Origin: Eubacterium sp.
Lineage (GTDB): Bacteria; Bacillota_A; Clostridia; Peptostreptococcales; Anaerovoracaceae
Direction of reading: 5' to 3'
Assembly (NCBI GenBank): GCA_021769545.1
Contig: JAETSS010000106.1
Coordinates: 1 to 5,426, forward strand
DNA: 5,426 bases
Both the position numbers and the translations under genes were made by a program. Below, piece by piece: positions 391 to 5,426 of this stretch; position 1 is the first letter of the stretch; every line of letters starts with the position of its first letter. Below the pieces are notes generated by a model. It was not told where the DNA came from and ran no database searches. It worked only from the letters and a program-made list of their open reading frames with translations.

Positions 391-747
391 ATGGGAAAAA
401 ATGAAGTTACATGCGACTGCGCTGCAATACATGAAGACGTTCTTGAGCACGTACGGAACGAGATCGTTCCATCGGAAAGCCTAAACTATATGTGTAAGCT
501 TTTTAAGGTATTCGGCGACAGCACCCGCATCAAAATAATGGCTGCTCTCAACTGTCACGAGATGTGCGTATGCGATCTGGCCGTGTTGCTGGATATGACA
601 AAGTCAGCTATCTCTCACCAGTTGAAGGTCCTCAGGGACAACAATTTAGTTAAATTTCAAAAGAAAGGAAAGCACGCCTACTATTCTCTGGCAGACGATC
701 ATGTGAAGGAGATATTGGACGTTGCGCTGGAACATATCAATGAGTAA
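391..747 (+). CDS. cadC: ArsR/SmtB-family metal-sensing repressor, CadC type
   Basis: A cytosolic winged-helix transcriptional repressor of 118 residues, the usual length for CadC/SmtB proteins. It should repress this operon and release DNA on binding Cd, Pb or Zn. The DNA-binding core is FGDSTRIKIMAAL (41-53) and the recognition helix region around TKSAISHQLKVLR (70-82), followed by the beta wing (about 86-100). Two metal sites are readable. The alpha-3N thiolate site is Cys8 and Cys10 in the N-terminal tail with Cys59 and Cys61 in EMCVCDL, matching the CadC pattern. The alpha-5 site is Asp102, His104, His115 and Glu118, with exactly the D-x-H and H-x2-E spacing of SmtB. The start at 391 is set by GGGAGG at 375-380. 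The stop overlaps the cadA start by 8 bases (ATGAGTAA), so the genes are cotranscribed and probably translationally coupled. Metal preference is inferred from ligands and neighbour. Confidence 0.93.
   Translation: MGKNEVTCDCAAIHEDVLEHVRNEIVPSESLNYMCKLFKVFGDSTRIKIMAALNCHEMCVCDLAVLLDMTKSAISHQLKVLRDNNLVKFQKKGKHAYYSLADDHVKEILDVALEHINE
706..711 (+). promoter_or_regulatory. Shine-Dalgarno inside cadC that bears on the cadA start
   Basis: AAGGAG lies 10 bases before an in-frame TTG at 722 but 28 bases before the ATG at 740. The ATG has only a weak GG/TGGA near 728-731. Ribosomes could therefore start at TTG 722, adding six residues (MRWNIS), or reach ATG 740 by coupling from the cadC stop. The AAGGAG also encodes part of the conserved alpha-5 helix of CadC (VKE), so its presence may be coincidental. 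Confidence 0.45.
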
Positions 748-3136
748 AGGATTAGATAGACGACAATTCGATGAGCATGATAAACATGAGCATCATGACG
801 GACACTGCGATCACGACCACGAACACCATCATCACGACGATGACTGCGGCTGCGGTTGTGAGCACGAGCATGGACACCATGGCAATCACGACCACGGCGG
901 ACACCATCATGAGCATCATGAAGATCACGACCACGAACACCATCATCACGACGATGACTGCGACTGCGGTTGTGATCACGAGCATCACGAAGATCACAAC
1001 CACGGCTTCGACAACATCGCAGGCTCCAACCAGATAACATACATCGTTCAAAACCTTGGCTGCGCCAACTGCGCTGCAAAGATGGAACGCAAAATACAGA
1101 GCCTTCCTCAGGTACAGGCCGCATCCCTGACCTTTGCAACAAAACAGCTCAGGGTCGCCGCCGACGATCCCCGCGCCTTAAAGCCGCAGCTCGAAAAAAT
1201 CTGCCAAGCCATCGAGGATCAGGTATACCTCGAAGAAAAAAGCCAGCTAAAAGCACCTGCGAAGCATGAACAAAAAGGGGTTTTCAAACAAAATATAAAA
1301 GATATACTGTCCATAATCATCGGGGCTGTATTATTCGCCGCAGGAATGGTGATACACCACGCAGAGCTGTTGCCTGTTCAGGCAGTATTCGGCATATTCA
1401 TCGTCGCATACATCGTGCTGGGCTGGAAGGTTCTCTGGACATCCGCCAAAAACATCTCAAAAGGTCAGATCTTTGATGAGAATTTCCTGATGGCGGTAGC
1501 TACTATAGCGGCCTTTTGCATCGGCGAATTTGCCGAAGGTGTAGGAGTGATGCTGTTCTACAGCGTAGGCGAGCTTTTCGAGCATATAGCCGTTGAAAAG
1601 AGCCGCGCTCAGATCATGGATGCAGTGGATATGCGTCCTGAAACGGTAAATCTCGTCCACGACGACCACTCCCACGTAGTGCCTGCCGAAAAAGCCAACA
1701 TCGGCGATATCCTGCTTGTTCGTCCGGGAGACAGGATCCCTCTTGACGGGATCATCACCGAAGGTGAAAGCCGCATCGACACATCCCCTGTTACAGGCGA
1801 ACCTGTTCCCGTTTCCGCTCACCCGGGAACGGAAGTTATATCAGGCTGTGTCAATGAACAGGGTCTGATAAAGATCAGAGTGACGAAGCCTCTTTCGGAA
1901 TCCATGGTTACACGCATACTGGACTCCGTCGAAAACGCAGCGGCCGGAAAGCCTCAGATCGACAAGTTCATTACGAAATTCGCCAAGATATACACACCGA
2001 TAGTCGTTTTACTGGCTCTGCTGGTAGCCATCATCCCATCGATAGTTTCCGGCAACTGGGGTTTTTGGATAGAAACGGCCATCACCTTCCTGGTAATAAG
2101 CTGCCCTTGCGCTCTGGTGATAAGCGTACCTCTTGCCTTCTTCTCAGGCATCGGCGCAGGCTCAAAGCTGGGCATACTGTTCAAGGGCGGACTTTCCATA
2201 GAGGCCCTGAAAAAGGTAAAAGCTGTAGTCATGGATAAGACAGGAACCATCACAAAAGGAAACTTCGTCGTACAGGAGATCATCACGGCAGACGGCATCA
2301 GCGAAAACGACGTCCTTGCCATTGCCGCCGCGTGTGAAGCCGCCTCCACGCATCCTATCGCCAAAAGCATCATGGACGAGGCAGCTAAACGTAGCATCAG
2401 TATCGACCATGCAGATAAAATAGAGGAACTTTCCGGACTCGGCGTAAAAGCCTCACTTACCGGCTGGACCGTCCTTTGCGGAAATAAAAAGCTTCTGGAA
2501 AAATACGGCGTTTCCGTAAGCGAGCAGGCTGTATCCGGTACAGGCACGCATGTACTGCTGGCCCTTGACGGCAAATTCATCGGAAGCATAACCATATCCG
2601 ATACCCTCAAGGACAATGCAATAGGCGCCATTTCATCCATCAAAGCCAAAGGACTGCTTCCTGTCATGCTGACGGGAGACAATGCAGCAAGCGCAAAGGC
2701 TGTCGCCGGTCTTGCAGGTATCGACAGAGTCTACGCACAACTCATGCCGGAAGATAAGCTGACAATATTAAAAGAGCTTCGCGAGGAAACCGGCTCGGTA
2801 ATGTTCGTAGGCGACGGTATAAACGATGCTCCCGTACTGGCAGGCGCAGATGTAGGCGCCGCAATGGGAAGCGGAGCAGATGCCGCCATCGAAGCCGCTG
2901 ACGTGGTATTCATGAATTCCTCACTTGAGGCTATCCCTCAGTCCATAAATATCGCGAAGTCTACTGGTACCATATCCTATCAGAACATAGTATTCGCACT
3001 GGCTGTAAAGATGGTCGTTCTGGTTATGGGTCTTCTGGGATTTGCAAATATCTGGGCTGCCATTTTCGCAGACACAGGCGTGGCTATGCTCTGCATACTC
3101 AATTCGCTCAGGATACTTCTTAAGAAATTCAAATAA
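740..3136 (+). CDS. cadA: P1B-2 type Zn/Cd/Pb-exporting P-type ATPase, CadA/ZntA
   Basis: An inner-membrane pump that uses ATP to export divalent soft metals (Zn, Cd, Pb); 798 residues from ATG 740. In order: a His/Asp/Cys-rich tail (13-88; 33 His, 7 Cys); one HMA domain (about 99-168) with the GCANC metal site, Cys108 and Cys111; membrane helices about 189-207, 213-233 and two more to 283, with Glu278 in the SVGE segment; the actuator domain with TGE at 352-354; the membrane CPC motif Cys455-Pro-Cys457; the phosphorylation site DKTGT at Asp499; the nucleotide-domain HP at 538-539; GDGIND at 691-696; and last helices with Lys757 and Asp778. The CPC motif with this Lys and Asp, 21 residues apart as in E. 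coli ZntA, marks the P1B-2 subgroup rather than copper pumps. All catalytic motifs are intact. It overlaps cadC by 8 bases. An alternative start is TTG 722. The tail is longer than usual for the family. Confidence 0.95.
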   Translation: MSKGLDRRQFDEHDKHEHHDGHCDHDHEHHHHDDDCGCGCEHEHGHHGNHDHGGHHHEHHEDHDHEHHHHDDDCDCGCDHEHHEDHNHGFDNIAGSNQITYIVQNLGCANCAAKMERKIQSLPQVQAASLTFATKQLRVAADDPRALKPQLEKICQAIEDQVYLEEKSQLKAPAKHEQKGVFKQNIKDILSIIIGAVLFAAGMVIHHAELLPVQAVFGIFIVAYIVLGWKVLWTSAKNISKGQIFDENFLMAVATIAAFCIGEFAEGVGVMLFYSVGELFEHIAVEKSRAQIMDAVDMRPETVNLVHDDHSHVVPAEKANIGDILLVRPGDRIPLDGIITEGESRIDTSPVTGEPVPVSAHPGTEVISGCVNEQGLIKIRVTKPLSESMVTRILDSVENAAAGKPQIDKFITKFAKIYTPIVVLLALLVAIIPSIVSGNWGFWIETAITFLVISCPCALVISVPLAFFSGIGAGSKLGILFKGGLSIEALKKVKAVVMDKTGTITKGNFVVQEIITADGISENDVLAIAAACEAASTHPIAKSIMDEAAKRSISIDHADKIEELSGLGVKASLTGWTVLCGNKKLLEKYGVSVSEQAVSGTGTHVLLALDGKFIGSITISDTLKDNAIGAISSIKAKGLLPVMLTGDNAASAKAVAGLAGIDRVYAQLMPEDKLTILKELREETGSVMFVGDGINDAPVLAGADVGAAMGSGADAAIEAADVVFMNSSLEAIPQSINIAKSTGTISYQNIVFALAVKMVVLVMGLLGFANIWAAIFADTGVAMLCILNSLRILLKKFK
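809..985 (+). repeat. Internal duplication encoding the His/Cys-rich tail of CadA
   Basis: Positions 809-871 and 923-985 are 63-base copies with two mismatches (849/963 and 862/976), offset by 114 bases, which is 38 codons and keeps the frame. Each encodes DHDHEHHHHDDDC followed by xCGC, that is, a His cluster, three Asp and three alternating Cys (36/38/40 and 74/76/78). Similarity extends upstream (HEHH before each copy) with a 9-base length difference. This is a recent in-frame duplication that doubled a putative metal-binding module. Confidence 0.85.
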
Positions 3137-3146
3137 GAAAATGTGT

Positions 3147-3194
3147 TTTCAGCGGCTATGCCATATTGATGTATATGCCGCTGAAATTGTTTTT
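3147..3194 (+). terminator. Possible cadA terminator, first hairpin of the array
   Basis: TTTCAGCGGC (3147-3156) is the exact inverse of GCCGCTGAAA (3177-3186), ten bases after the cadA stop, and TTGTTTTT follows (3187-3194). The loop is 20 bases, with a possible TAT/ATA extension of the stem. The T-rich tail makes termination plausible, but the hairpin is also unit 1 of the repeat array, so its position after cadA may be incidental. Confidence 0.4.
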
Positions 3195-3500
3195 GATCTT
3201 TCAGCGATGATTACCGGATTAGGGGACTGCCGCTGAAATAACCCTAACCCCTTTCAGCGGCACTTGACAAATCTAAGCCACATCGCGGAAACAATCAGCT
3301 CTCTTTCAGCGATTATTGCCGGATTCAGCGTCTCTCGCGGAAAGCGTTCTTTCCATTTCAACGGTATATCATTTTCATCATGCCTACCGGTGAACCTCAT
3401 CATTTTACTTTCTCCGATAATCAATAAAGAGTCCTCTTGCCGGTGAAATTTCTTAAAACATTTCACCGGGAAACAGCCATACCCTATGCATGACGTTGAA

Positions 3501-3538
3501 GCAAAATCCTTACAACAAAAATAAGGCTGCATTTTTTT
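3501..3538 (+). terminator. Weak terminator-like hairpin where the array loses its period
   Basis: CCTTA (3508-3512) pairs with TAAGG (3522-3526), with GCA/TGC possible outside it, and ATTTTTTT follows (3531-3538). The stem is short. It occupies the 44-base interval between array units 7 and 8, where all other linkers are 12-14 bases, and looks like an insertion or a decayed unit. Confidence 0.25.
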
Positions 3539-3644
3539 CAAATATTTCATCGGCAAAATGTATTTCACCCGATTCACCGGTGAAGCAGCAAAATTCAAAT
3601 TCAACGGTAATATATTAATAACCGATATTACCGTTGAAGCGTTC

Positions 3645-3692
3645 AAAAAAATTTCAACGGCAATGCCGCGATAATCAGCACCACCGTTGAAA
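3645..3692 (-). terminator. Probable terminator of the amidohydrolase gene, last array unit
   Basis: Read on the minus strand, TTTCAACGGTGG (3692-3681) opens a hairpin closed by CCGTTGAAA (3660-3652), followed by seven T (3651-3645). The stem is 9 bp with a loop of about 23 bases. It lies 42 bases past the stop codon of the minus-strand gene. A-tracts flank both sides, so it could act in both directions. It is also unit 10 of the repeat array. Confidence 0.5.
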
Positions 3693-3733
3693 AAAACATA
3701 TTATGAGCATAGGAGCTATACTTTCCGCCCCGG

Positions 3734-5426
3734 CTATTTCACCTGCTCTCCTTTGAGCACAAATCTATCTACCTTTATTTCTCCTATATCCATCGGATCT
3801 GTATCCTCGATCACGCTGTCAAGTATCACGAAGTCCGCAGATTTTCCGACCTCGATGGTTCCCGTAACGTCTTCCGTAAACATCTGATACGCTCCCGAAA
3901 GTGTATAGCTTTCGATCATATCATCAAGGGACATGAGATCTGCTGTAGGATCATCCTCGGGACCTGATATTATACCTTTGTATTCCTCATAATACGGAGA
4001 TTCCTTCGGGGATGTCCTCGTTACTCCCACCTGTATGCCCTTGAGAGGGTCAATCTCCACTGTAATAGGGAAATCCGTTCCGGAAGCCATCACGGCTCCG
4101 GCTTTTTTCATCCTGCCTATAGGATACTGTTCGTACATCCTCTTTCTGCCAAGCAGCGGCTGTACGAAAGTGGTGGAAAAATAATCGATGATCGGCCATG
4201 TCGGCTGGATCGAGCCTACGACATTGAGTCTCGCCATCCTTTCGATATCCTCGTCGTCGATGTTCATGATATGTGCTATGGAATTTCTTCTGCCTTTCAC
4301 GCCGTTCTCTTCGATATATTCGAAAGCATTGAGCGTCTGCTTTACGGCAGCGTCTCCCATGGCGTGGACGTGTATCTGATATCCGCTCCTGGCCAGCATC
4401 AGAAACGCCTCCTTCATTTCCTCCTCGGTCCACTGCGGGAATCCTCTGTAATCAGCAGGATAGCCCATGTCCTTCAGCACCTGCGGCTCGAAAGGCTCGT
4501 TCATATAGAATGTGAAGCCGCCTCCGTCACAGAAGAATTTGACCGTTTCTATCTTGAAATCATCGCCTACATTATATTTTCCTTTATCAGCTATCATCTG
4601 CTCAAACTGCGAAAACGGCTTTGAGAGATCCGCCAAAAGCGCGGTGCTGACTCTTATCTTGAGTTCGCCCGACTCCGCCAGCTCTTTATAAGCCAGCAGT
4701 GCGTTTTCCGTGGCATATGCATCAAAAATCCCCATTATACCGTGGGTGAATGCCTGATCCCTCTGGAAATCCAATATGCCTTTTTTGTATTCTTCCACGG
4801 AAAAATCTATCAGCGGAAGCTTATCTATGAGCATGCAGATAGCTGACAGCTCCTGAAACAGTCCTGTAGGGTTGCCTTCCGCGTCTCTGCTCATCACTCC
4901 GTTTCTCGGAGTCGGTGTGTCCTTGTCTATTCCCGCCATCTCAAGAGCTTTGGAGTTGACGAGTACGCTGTGATGGTCGAAGGATCTCAGCATCACAGGC
5001 CTGTCCGCGCATACCAGCTCATCGACCTCATAGCAGGTAGGAGTCCCTTCCGCATCCAGCTGGAAAGCGGCAGGCGTCCATCCTGTGGACCTTACGATGG
5101 GAAGCTCCGGATTTTCCTCCGCATACTCCCTGATAGGCGCCATGATCCTTTCGATATACGCTCTGCGGCTTTCGCTTTCATTGCGGTCTATTCCGTAAAT
5201 AAGCTTTGTTGCGGAAAGCTCCGTGCACATGGTGGCATGCAGATGCGCGTCTACGAAGCCCGGGAGTATACTGTTTCCCTCAGCATCCAGTACCTTCGTA
5301 TCCTCCGCTATGTATTCCCGGATGTCCTCATCGCCGCCAATAAAGATAAACTTTCCGTCTTTAACCGCCGCTGCGGTATTTCCAAGCGCTTTGCCGCCAT
5401 CAAATATCCTGCCATTCTTAACAACT
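3734..5426 (-). CDS. YtcJ-like amidohydrolase (amidohydrolase family 3), 5' end cut by the window
   Basis: A cytosolic metal-dependent hydrolase with a TIM-barrel core; substrate unknown. The frame stays open to the window edge (563 residues visible, first full codon at 5425-5423), and the protein opens VVKNGRIFDGG, typical of the small N-terminal beta domain of this family, so only a few residues are missing. An internal ATG at 5230 is not the start, because it lies after the metal site in PGFVDAHLHATM (His61 and His63 of the visible part). Further expected ligands are Lys296 in VKFFCDGG, His352 and His354 in HVHAMGD, His385 in SIAHIMN, and Asp451 in SGTDFP. The C-terminus (GTIEVGKSADFVILD) closes the beta domain in the usual way. 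No signal peptide can be judged. It converges on cadA across a repeat-rich gap and has no apparent functional link to it. The family is secure; the reaction is not assignable. Confidence 0.9.
   Translation of the reverse strand, partial: VVKNGRIFDGGKALGNTAAAVKDGKFIFIGGDEDIREYIAEDTKVLDAEGNSILPGFVDAHLHATMCTELSATKLIYGIDRNESESRRAYIERIMAPIREYAEENPELPIVRSTGWTPAAFQLDAEGTPTCYEVDELVCADRPVMLRSFDHHSVLVNSKALEMAGIDKDTPTPRNGVMSRDAEGNPTGLFQELSAICMLIDKLPLIDFSVEEYKKGILDFQRDQAFTHGIMGIFDAYATENALLAYKELAESGELKIRVSTALLADLSKPFSQFEQMIADKGKYNVGDDFKIETVKFFCDGGGFTFYMNEPFEPQVLKDMGYPADYRGFPQWTEEEMKEAFLMLARSGYQIHVHAMGDAAVKQTLNAFEYIEENGVKGRRNSIAHIMNIDDEDIERMARLNVVGSIQPTWPIIDYFSTTFVQPLLGRKRMYEQYPIGRMKKAGAVMASGTDFPITVEIDPLKGIQVGVTRTSPKESPYYEEYKGIISGPEDDPTADLMSLDDMIESYTLSGAYQMFTEDVTGTIEVGKSADFVILDSVIEDTDPMDIGEIKVDRFVLKGEQVK

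Follow-up and report, generated by a model that had tools for sequence, protein, structure and literature searches.

Rows of phased, inverted half-sites in related bacteria suggest an undescribed protein that bends or coats intergenic DNA

The window (the whole stretch of DNA analysed, 5,426 nucleotides of contig JAETSS010000106.1 from Eubacterium sp.) encodes three proteins: an ArsR-type regulator, a heavy-metal P-type ATPase and an amidohydrolase. The ATPase gene (forward strand, end at 3136) and the amidohydrolase gene (reverse strand, end at 3734) are convergent, and between them we found an array of ten units of 40-41 bp, each bounded by inverse copies of the half-site TTTCAnCGG (Table 1). 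No reading frame is open across the entire array, and the Rfam search of the window gave three weak matches, every one below the gathering score. The N-terminal part of the ATPase (770-1010) is very histidine- and aspartate-rich and internally repeated, and is likely to bind metal. Ahead of the regulator gene lies a 96-bp tandem repeat of 2.1 copies (67-271), and just upstream of that gene an inverted repeat of 22 nt (292-353, 91% complementary, 18 nt between the arms), which we take to be the operator of the ArsR-type regulator.

Table 1. Positions of the array, its ten units and the two flanking genes in the window
Feature	Positions	Strand	Forward half-site start	Reverse half-site start	Remarks
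Whole array	3147..3692	.			Ten units, alternating inverted half-sites; half-site scan, shuffles
Unit 1	3147..3186	.	3147	3178	Both half-sites exact; ATPase stop 10 bases before
Unit 2	3199..3238	.	3199	3230	
Unit 3	3252..3291	.	3252	3283	
Unit 4	3304..3343	.	3304	3335	
Unit 5	3356..3395	.	3356	3387	
Unit 6	3409..3448	.	3409	3440	Two mismatches in forward half-site
Unit 7	3461..3501	.	3461	3493	Followed by the sole long step, 84 bp (eight turns)
Unit 8	3545..3585	.	3545	3577	
Unit 9	3599..3639	.	3599	3631	Contains a 14-bp perfect inverted repeat
Unit 10	3652..3692	-	3652	3684	Also a terminator-like hairpin with T run, 3' of the amidohydrolase gene
Heavy-metal P-type ATPase gene	722..3136	+			Left neighbour (context, outside the array)
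Amidohydrolase gene	3734..5425	-			Right neighbour, convergent, open at window end (context)

The ten units and their relative starts (0, 52, 105, 157, 209, 262, 314, 398, 452 and 505) agree exactly with those given by an earlier, sequence-only reading of this DNA. TTTCAnCGG does bound the units as that reading held, but more loosely: 10 of the 20 half-sites are exact, six have one mismatch and four have two. The distance between half-sites is 31-32 bp within a unit and 21-22 bp between units, with one reverse-to-forward step of 52 bp.

The region 3137-3733 was compared with 2000 dinucleotide shuffles, counting sites with at most one mismatch. We found 18 such sites, namely 16 of the 20 array half-sites and two more within unit 8, against a shuffled mean of 0.74 and maximum of 5; correctly spaced pairs numbered 6, against a mean of 0.001 and a maximum of 1. 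A motif-blind score reached 35, with a shuffled maximum of 28. Since the site counts and the motif-blind score exceed all 2000 shuffles, the array is not a product of chance. Phase coherence, computed for periods from 9.5 to 12.0 bp, peaks at 10.5 bp (forward 0.93, reverse 0.87, joint 0.90), the helical phasing that had been claimed. Units 2 and 4, which lie 105 bp apart, share 79% identity over 42 nt, so tandem duplication gives part of the regular period of the window.

Similar arrays were found in other genomes. Locus L009 of genome G008 matches the window ATPase with 71% identity in its best segment, and a two-mismatch search through 148 genomes of the family of G008 led to genome G086, with TTACAGCGG units 52 bp apart. 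Further reading of G086 revealed arrays with other half-sites and a similar layout. In G086 and G140, the only two genomes of their genus in the set, the stretches read contained 14 arrays of GAGCAGTA, each of at least two units, with a geometry like that of the window. Exact places of GAGCAGTA-N20..26-TACTGCTC numbered 72 in G086 and 32 in G140, and the reversed control gave 0 in both. With a gap of N22..24, the GAGCAGTA pattern was present in two of 345 family genomes, G086 and G140, and the control in one other genome. TTTCAnCGG with the right gap occurred at 8 places in six of 349 family genomes (control, 1 of 349); two of these places fall within open frames (286 codons in G232, 293 in G305) and were put down to chance. 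The variant TTnCAGCGG occurred at 11 places in six of 393 genomes of the order, with the control in none of those listed; one place, on contig C170 of G283, is coding. Small TTTCAGCGG arrays were found in G283 and G253, with no frame open across them.

By their half-sites, the arrays of G086 and G140 were assigned to classes A (GAGCAGTA), B (TTACAGCGG) and C (TTCCAYGRTATA). A sequence-blind scan of 2.23 Mb of these two genomes picked out 19 places, all of them alternating inverted arrays of the three classes: 13 were class A, two were class B (a single array) and four were assigned to class C. Applied to 1.67 Mb of other loci, the scan picked out just two overlapping copies of the class B array; because it is tuned to a period of 52-53 bp, arrays with wider spacing, like the ones in G283 and G253, escape it. 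No exact-motif unit was found in 80 loci of ATPase relatives (80 of 113 kept). In viral contigs, single units turned up in 6 and in 35 stretches, and the sequence-blind scan found an array in none of these 41, so there is no sign of a viral origin. The amidohydrolase has an orthologue in G133 (87% identity) with a different neighbour gene from that in the window; in the 1500 bases past its 3' end the sequence-blind scan found no array, and five one-mismatch half-sites were scattered there.

The geometry of the GAGCAGTA arrays is strict. Through the 14 stretches, the forward-to-reverse distance is 31 bp in 107 of 117 cases and the reverse-to-forward distance 22 bp in 101 of 111. The period of about 52.5 bases proposed from the window thus returns in the GAGCAGTA arrays (31 + 22 bp), whereas the G283 and G253 arrays are wider. 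The geometry is not universal, since class C shows other distances (24-25 and about 27 bp between 12-mers) and the class B array in G140 has one forward-reverse step of 105 bp. Class C arrays were located at L114:1017-1210, G086 C12:311703, G140 C2:106971 and G140 C1:161550.

Neighbouring unit interiors are often alike. Because tandem duplication can yield a constant period, the steps that depart from the 52-53-bp rule are more independent evidence of phasing. Eleven irregular intervals were reduced to eight: L186 was left out, as was an interval of 147 (52 + 95, the same repeat), the orthologous 93 and 94 were pooled as 93.5, and the window's 189 was entered as its 84-bp long step. An interval of 157 in L176 was filtered out, with steps of 104-108 and 157-161 counted as multiples of the rule. 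L186, on contig C170 of G283, had been a candidate array with an 84-bp step; it was removed from the array set because it lies within an open frame of 525 residues and its spacings (33, 51 and 33) are multiples of three. The remaining steps are 72, 73, 73, 74, 84, 93.5, 94 and 95 bp, and at 10.5 bp they give a coherence of 0.93, the mean phase being close to zero (random-phase P 6.5e-5), for a set that was chosen after seeing the data and comes from six arrays, three steps being from one array. Because the range covered by the steps is narrow, periods of 10.3-11 bp score nearly as well. When exact half-sites were required, no place with a reverse-forward gap of 15-45 came up in G086 or G140, so the exceptional steps in these genomes involve degenerate half-sites; the eight steps rest in part on half-sites with one mismatch. 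With these limits on the exceptional steps, the sites are set in whole helical turns, as in an array of nucleoid-protein sites. The earlier proposal of a helically phased protein-site array thus gains from arrays with other half-sites and from near-whole-turn steps, and gives up part of its period to tandem duplication. The units in the stretches read form clusters, and where their spacing changes it does so by about whole turns; single units scattered at random and freely drifting spacing, the outcomes that the sequence-only reading had set against itself, were not what we found.

Plain satellite DNA, made by replication slippage and keeping its period as a relic of duplication, could account for the interiors common to neighbouring units. 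Two arrays common to G086 and G140 (A8/hA2 and A6/hA3) differ in copy number, as such slippage would allow. However, across 122 units of the 14 class A arrays the half-site core is nearly invariant and the interiors differ, identical distances recur with an unrelated half-site, and the exceptional steps fall near whole turns; moreover, the data already suggest that half-sites change much slower than interiors in aligned orthologous arrays. We regard satellite DNA as a very improbable explanation.

The interiors were said to be mostly unrelated, which does not fit the A/T-rich centre of the dyad that the units share. In class A the A/T fraction is 0.98 at the dyad centre and 0.94 at one bp from it, falls to 0.31-0.35 three to five bp out and is back at 0.93 at ten bp; in all 14 arrays the centre is richer in A/T than the positions three to five bp away. 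The A/T signal in phase with 10.5 bp beats shuffles in 2000 of 2000 cases for class A, in 1995 of 2000 for the window and in 2000 of 2000 for the six other TTTCAGCGG loci, four of which hold one unit each, in short frames, coding or not. The strongest of the periods tried was 8 bp for class A, 9 for the window and 11 for the other loci, so what the data show is less a 10.5-bp rhythm than an A/T dyad with G/C on either side. At the exact centre of class B units the A/T fraction is just 0.42. An A/T dyad with G/C flanks is the pattern that a dyad-bending protein would select.

Another explanation is that the units are RNA hairpins or bidirectional terminators, at which RNA polymerase stops or which shield the 3' ends of transcripts from the ATPase and amidohydrolase genes, the inner units being decayed copies. 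A hairpin with a T run, as in a tandem terminator, was found in one of the ten window units, unit 10, by a scan covering loops of up to 8 nt; both terminator-like sites of the window lie in this unit, compared with 0.7 in shuffles, and the T run is on the strand of the amidohydrolase transcript. Against interior shuffles, units 9 (z -3.1, plus strand) and 10 (z -3.0, minus strand) fold well and unit 1 somewhat so (z -1.7, plus strand). At the other TTTCAGCGG loci three of 11 units reach z -3 on one strand, and the well-folding units there are the third and fourth of the G283 array and the only unit of G008. In the window, however, units 2, 3, 6, 7 and 8 fold no better than shuffled, and in class A, where the first eight units of every array were compared with interior shuffles, z averages about -0.4 on either strand. 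The first position of the class A half-site varies, and it pairs in 91 of the 122 units compared with 96.5 when shuffled within arrays; there is no covariation in these units, and no position outside the half-sites pairs clearly above shuffled. Therefore, pairing is not what class A keeps. Hairpins would also leave the whole-turn steps and the A/T dyad unexplained, and the arrays are found between divergent and co-directional genes as well. Considering the lack of covariation and that most units fold like shuffled ones, a protein site on double-stranded DNA is a better fit than a hairpin, and we hold the hairpin or terminator explanation to be rather improbable. The outer window units may have been recruited as terminators.

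In the mechanical frame list, the class A arrays are placed between larger frames, with the flanking genes in several orientations, and small frames overlap many of them. No frame is open across 12 of the 14 class A arrays, and the other two have frames of 283 and 92 codons. Most arrays are separated from the nearest large frame by over 100 bp. Twenty neighbouring proteins, a part of all neighbours, were scanned, and 16 of them have Pfam families, of unrelated kinds. Considering the window's three proteins and these 20 neighbours, with no initiator or partition gene among them, the iteron or partition role that had been suggested is not borne out. Iterons and plasmid or chromosomal partition sites also hold multiple protein sites in phase with the helix, as direct repeats or single palindromes at one or a few places; unlike them, the arrays here consist of alternating inverted half-sites, with many arrays per genome.

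The units could also serve a regulator or site-specific recombinase, acting on nearby genes, as its operators or accessory sites. Paired inverted half-sites with an A/T dyad do resemble the dimer sites of repressors and recombinases. Serine-recombinase sites and the biotin operator likewise have outer half-sites that are read by sequence, an interior that is less specific and an overall size of roughly 30-40 bp; they differ from the arrays in occurring as single or few sites. A LysR-type regulator gene, one of the 20 neighbours, adjoins array A7. On the other side, no recombinase family is present among these neighbours, which goes against the recombinase role named earlier; the neighbours are of unrelated kinds, large frames are mostly over 100 bp away, and an operator has no need of so many units. 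We know of no ten-unit arrays of large palindromic dimer sites. An operator or recombinase site is in our view quite improbable.

Among the orthologous places of G086 and G140 that were resolved, arrays also come and go. Array A5 is absent from its place in G140, where the aligned flanks are 57 bp apart compared with 1014, with no half-site of up to one mismatch between them. The place in G140 that corresponds to A4 holds a single stray half-site and has one flank inverted, and the G140 counterpart of A9 is down to three degenerate half-sites. This turnover argues against control of particular genes.

Intergenic dispersal, alternating orientation and presence or absence at orthologous places would suit a mobile or selfish BIME-like repeat, multiplied by a transposase without benefit to the host. 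According to PMC2817692, BIMEs are regularly spaced REPs in alternating orientation, for which protein-binding and chromosome-organising roles have been suggested, and the arrays here are likewise intergenic, dispersed, regularly spaced and alternating. In PMC3733652 a REP is described as a short stem-loop whose stem measures 5-13 bp, and the two large families also carry a GTAG or CGTC tag; the half-site here differs as an 8-9-mer lacking a stem-loop of this kind, with arms 22-23 bp apart and helical-turn spacing. A REP-style stem-loop kept by pairing is not seen in class A, though some window and G283 units fold well, and in the position profiles of class A and the window neither GTAG nor CGTC occupies a constant position beyond the half-sites. 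Of known kinds, BIMEs come closest, although the stem-loop and tag by which REPs are defined were not found. For the tyrosine transposase (RAYT) associated with REPs, matches to the Y1 transposase family (PF01797) numbered 3 in G086 (one broken) and 21 in G140, and there were none in G283, which has a TTTCAGCGG array. The IS200-like pairs read in G140 are ordinary, and no array half-site was noted alongside them. Considering both sides, we think a selfish repeat unlikely. Tandem pairs of near-identical IS200-like elements were observed at G140 C1:255540-256649.

The reading that we prefer, with a probability of about one half, is that a dimeric, DNA-bending protein binds the units in phase along one helix face, most likely in an architectural role. 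Each unit of about 40 bp would be a double-stranded site for one dimer. The dimer would recognise the sequence of the two half-sites, which are separated by three helical turns, and the intervening DNA would be bent at the A/T-rich dyad. Units usually set five turns apart, at times seven, eight or nine, would by this whole-turn spacing place all dimers on one helix face and let adjacent dimers join into a filament or wrapped block. The arrays would be scattered through the intergenic DNA of some relatives, growing and shrinking by tandem duplication, and their most likely job would be compacting, bridging or insulating intergenic DNA rather than control of particular genes. From the arrays we infer a dimer, DNA bending, cooperative assembly and an architectural role, the last of these being the least certain step.

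Similar rows with different half-sites in related bacteria suggest an undescribed protein that bends or coats intergenic DNA. Somewhat less probable than the preferred reading is that they form an undescribed class of intergenic nucleoprotein arrays in some clostridia, where related dimeric bending proteins with a lineage-variable half-site and a kept geometry (units of three turns, whole-turn steps from unit to unit and the A/T dyad) would build dispersed, fast-evolving chromatin-like blocks. No description of such arrays was found in the literature searched, which is weak evidence, as coverage was partial and most subscription journals lie outside it. If the preferred reading is true, some bacteria use dispersed intergenic arrays of bent and phased protein sites, by a logic like that of positioned chromatin, and the fixed geometry with changing half-sites is a natural experiment in the co-evolution of protein and site. 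It is directly testable: the arrays are short and the geometric prediction is sharp, with half-turn insertions breaking assembly and full-turn ones sparing it, and the array DNA is a ready bait for the cognate protein.

A dispersed palindrome with arms TTTCCAGGGGAAACGCCGA was also observed on contigs C1 and C2 of G140 (e.g. C1:446552 and C2:387156). With up to two mismatches, the stretches read contained no match to TTTCCAGGGGAAACGCCGA in G086, and 16 forward and 12 reverse matches in G140.
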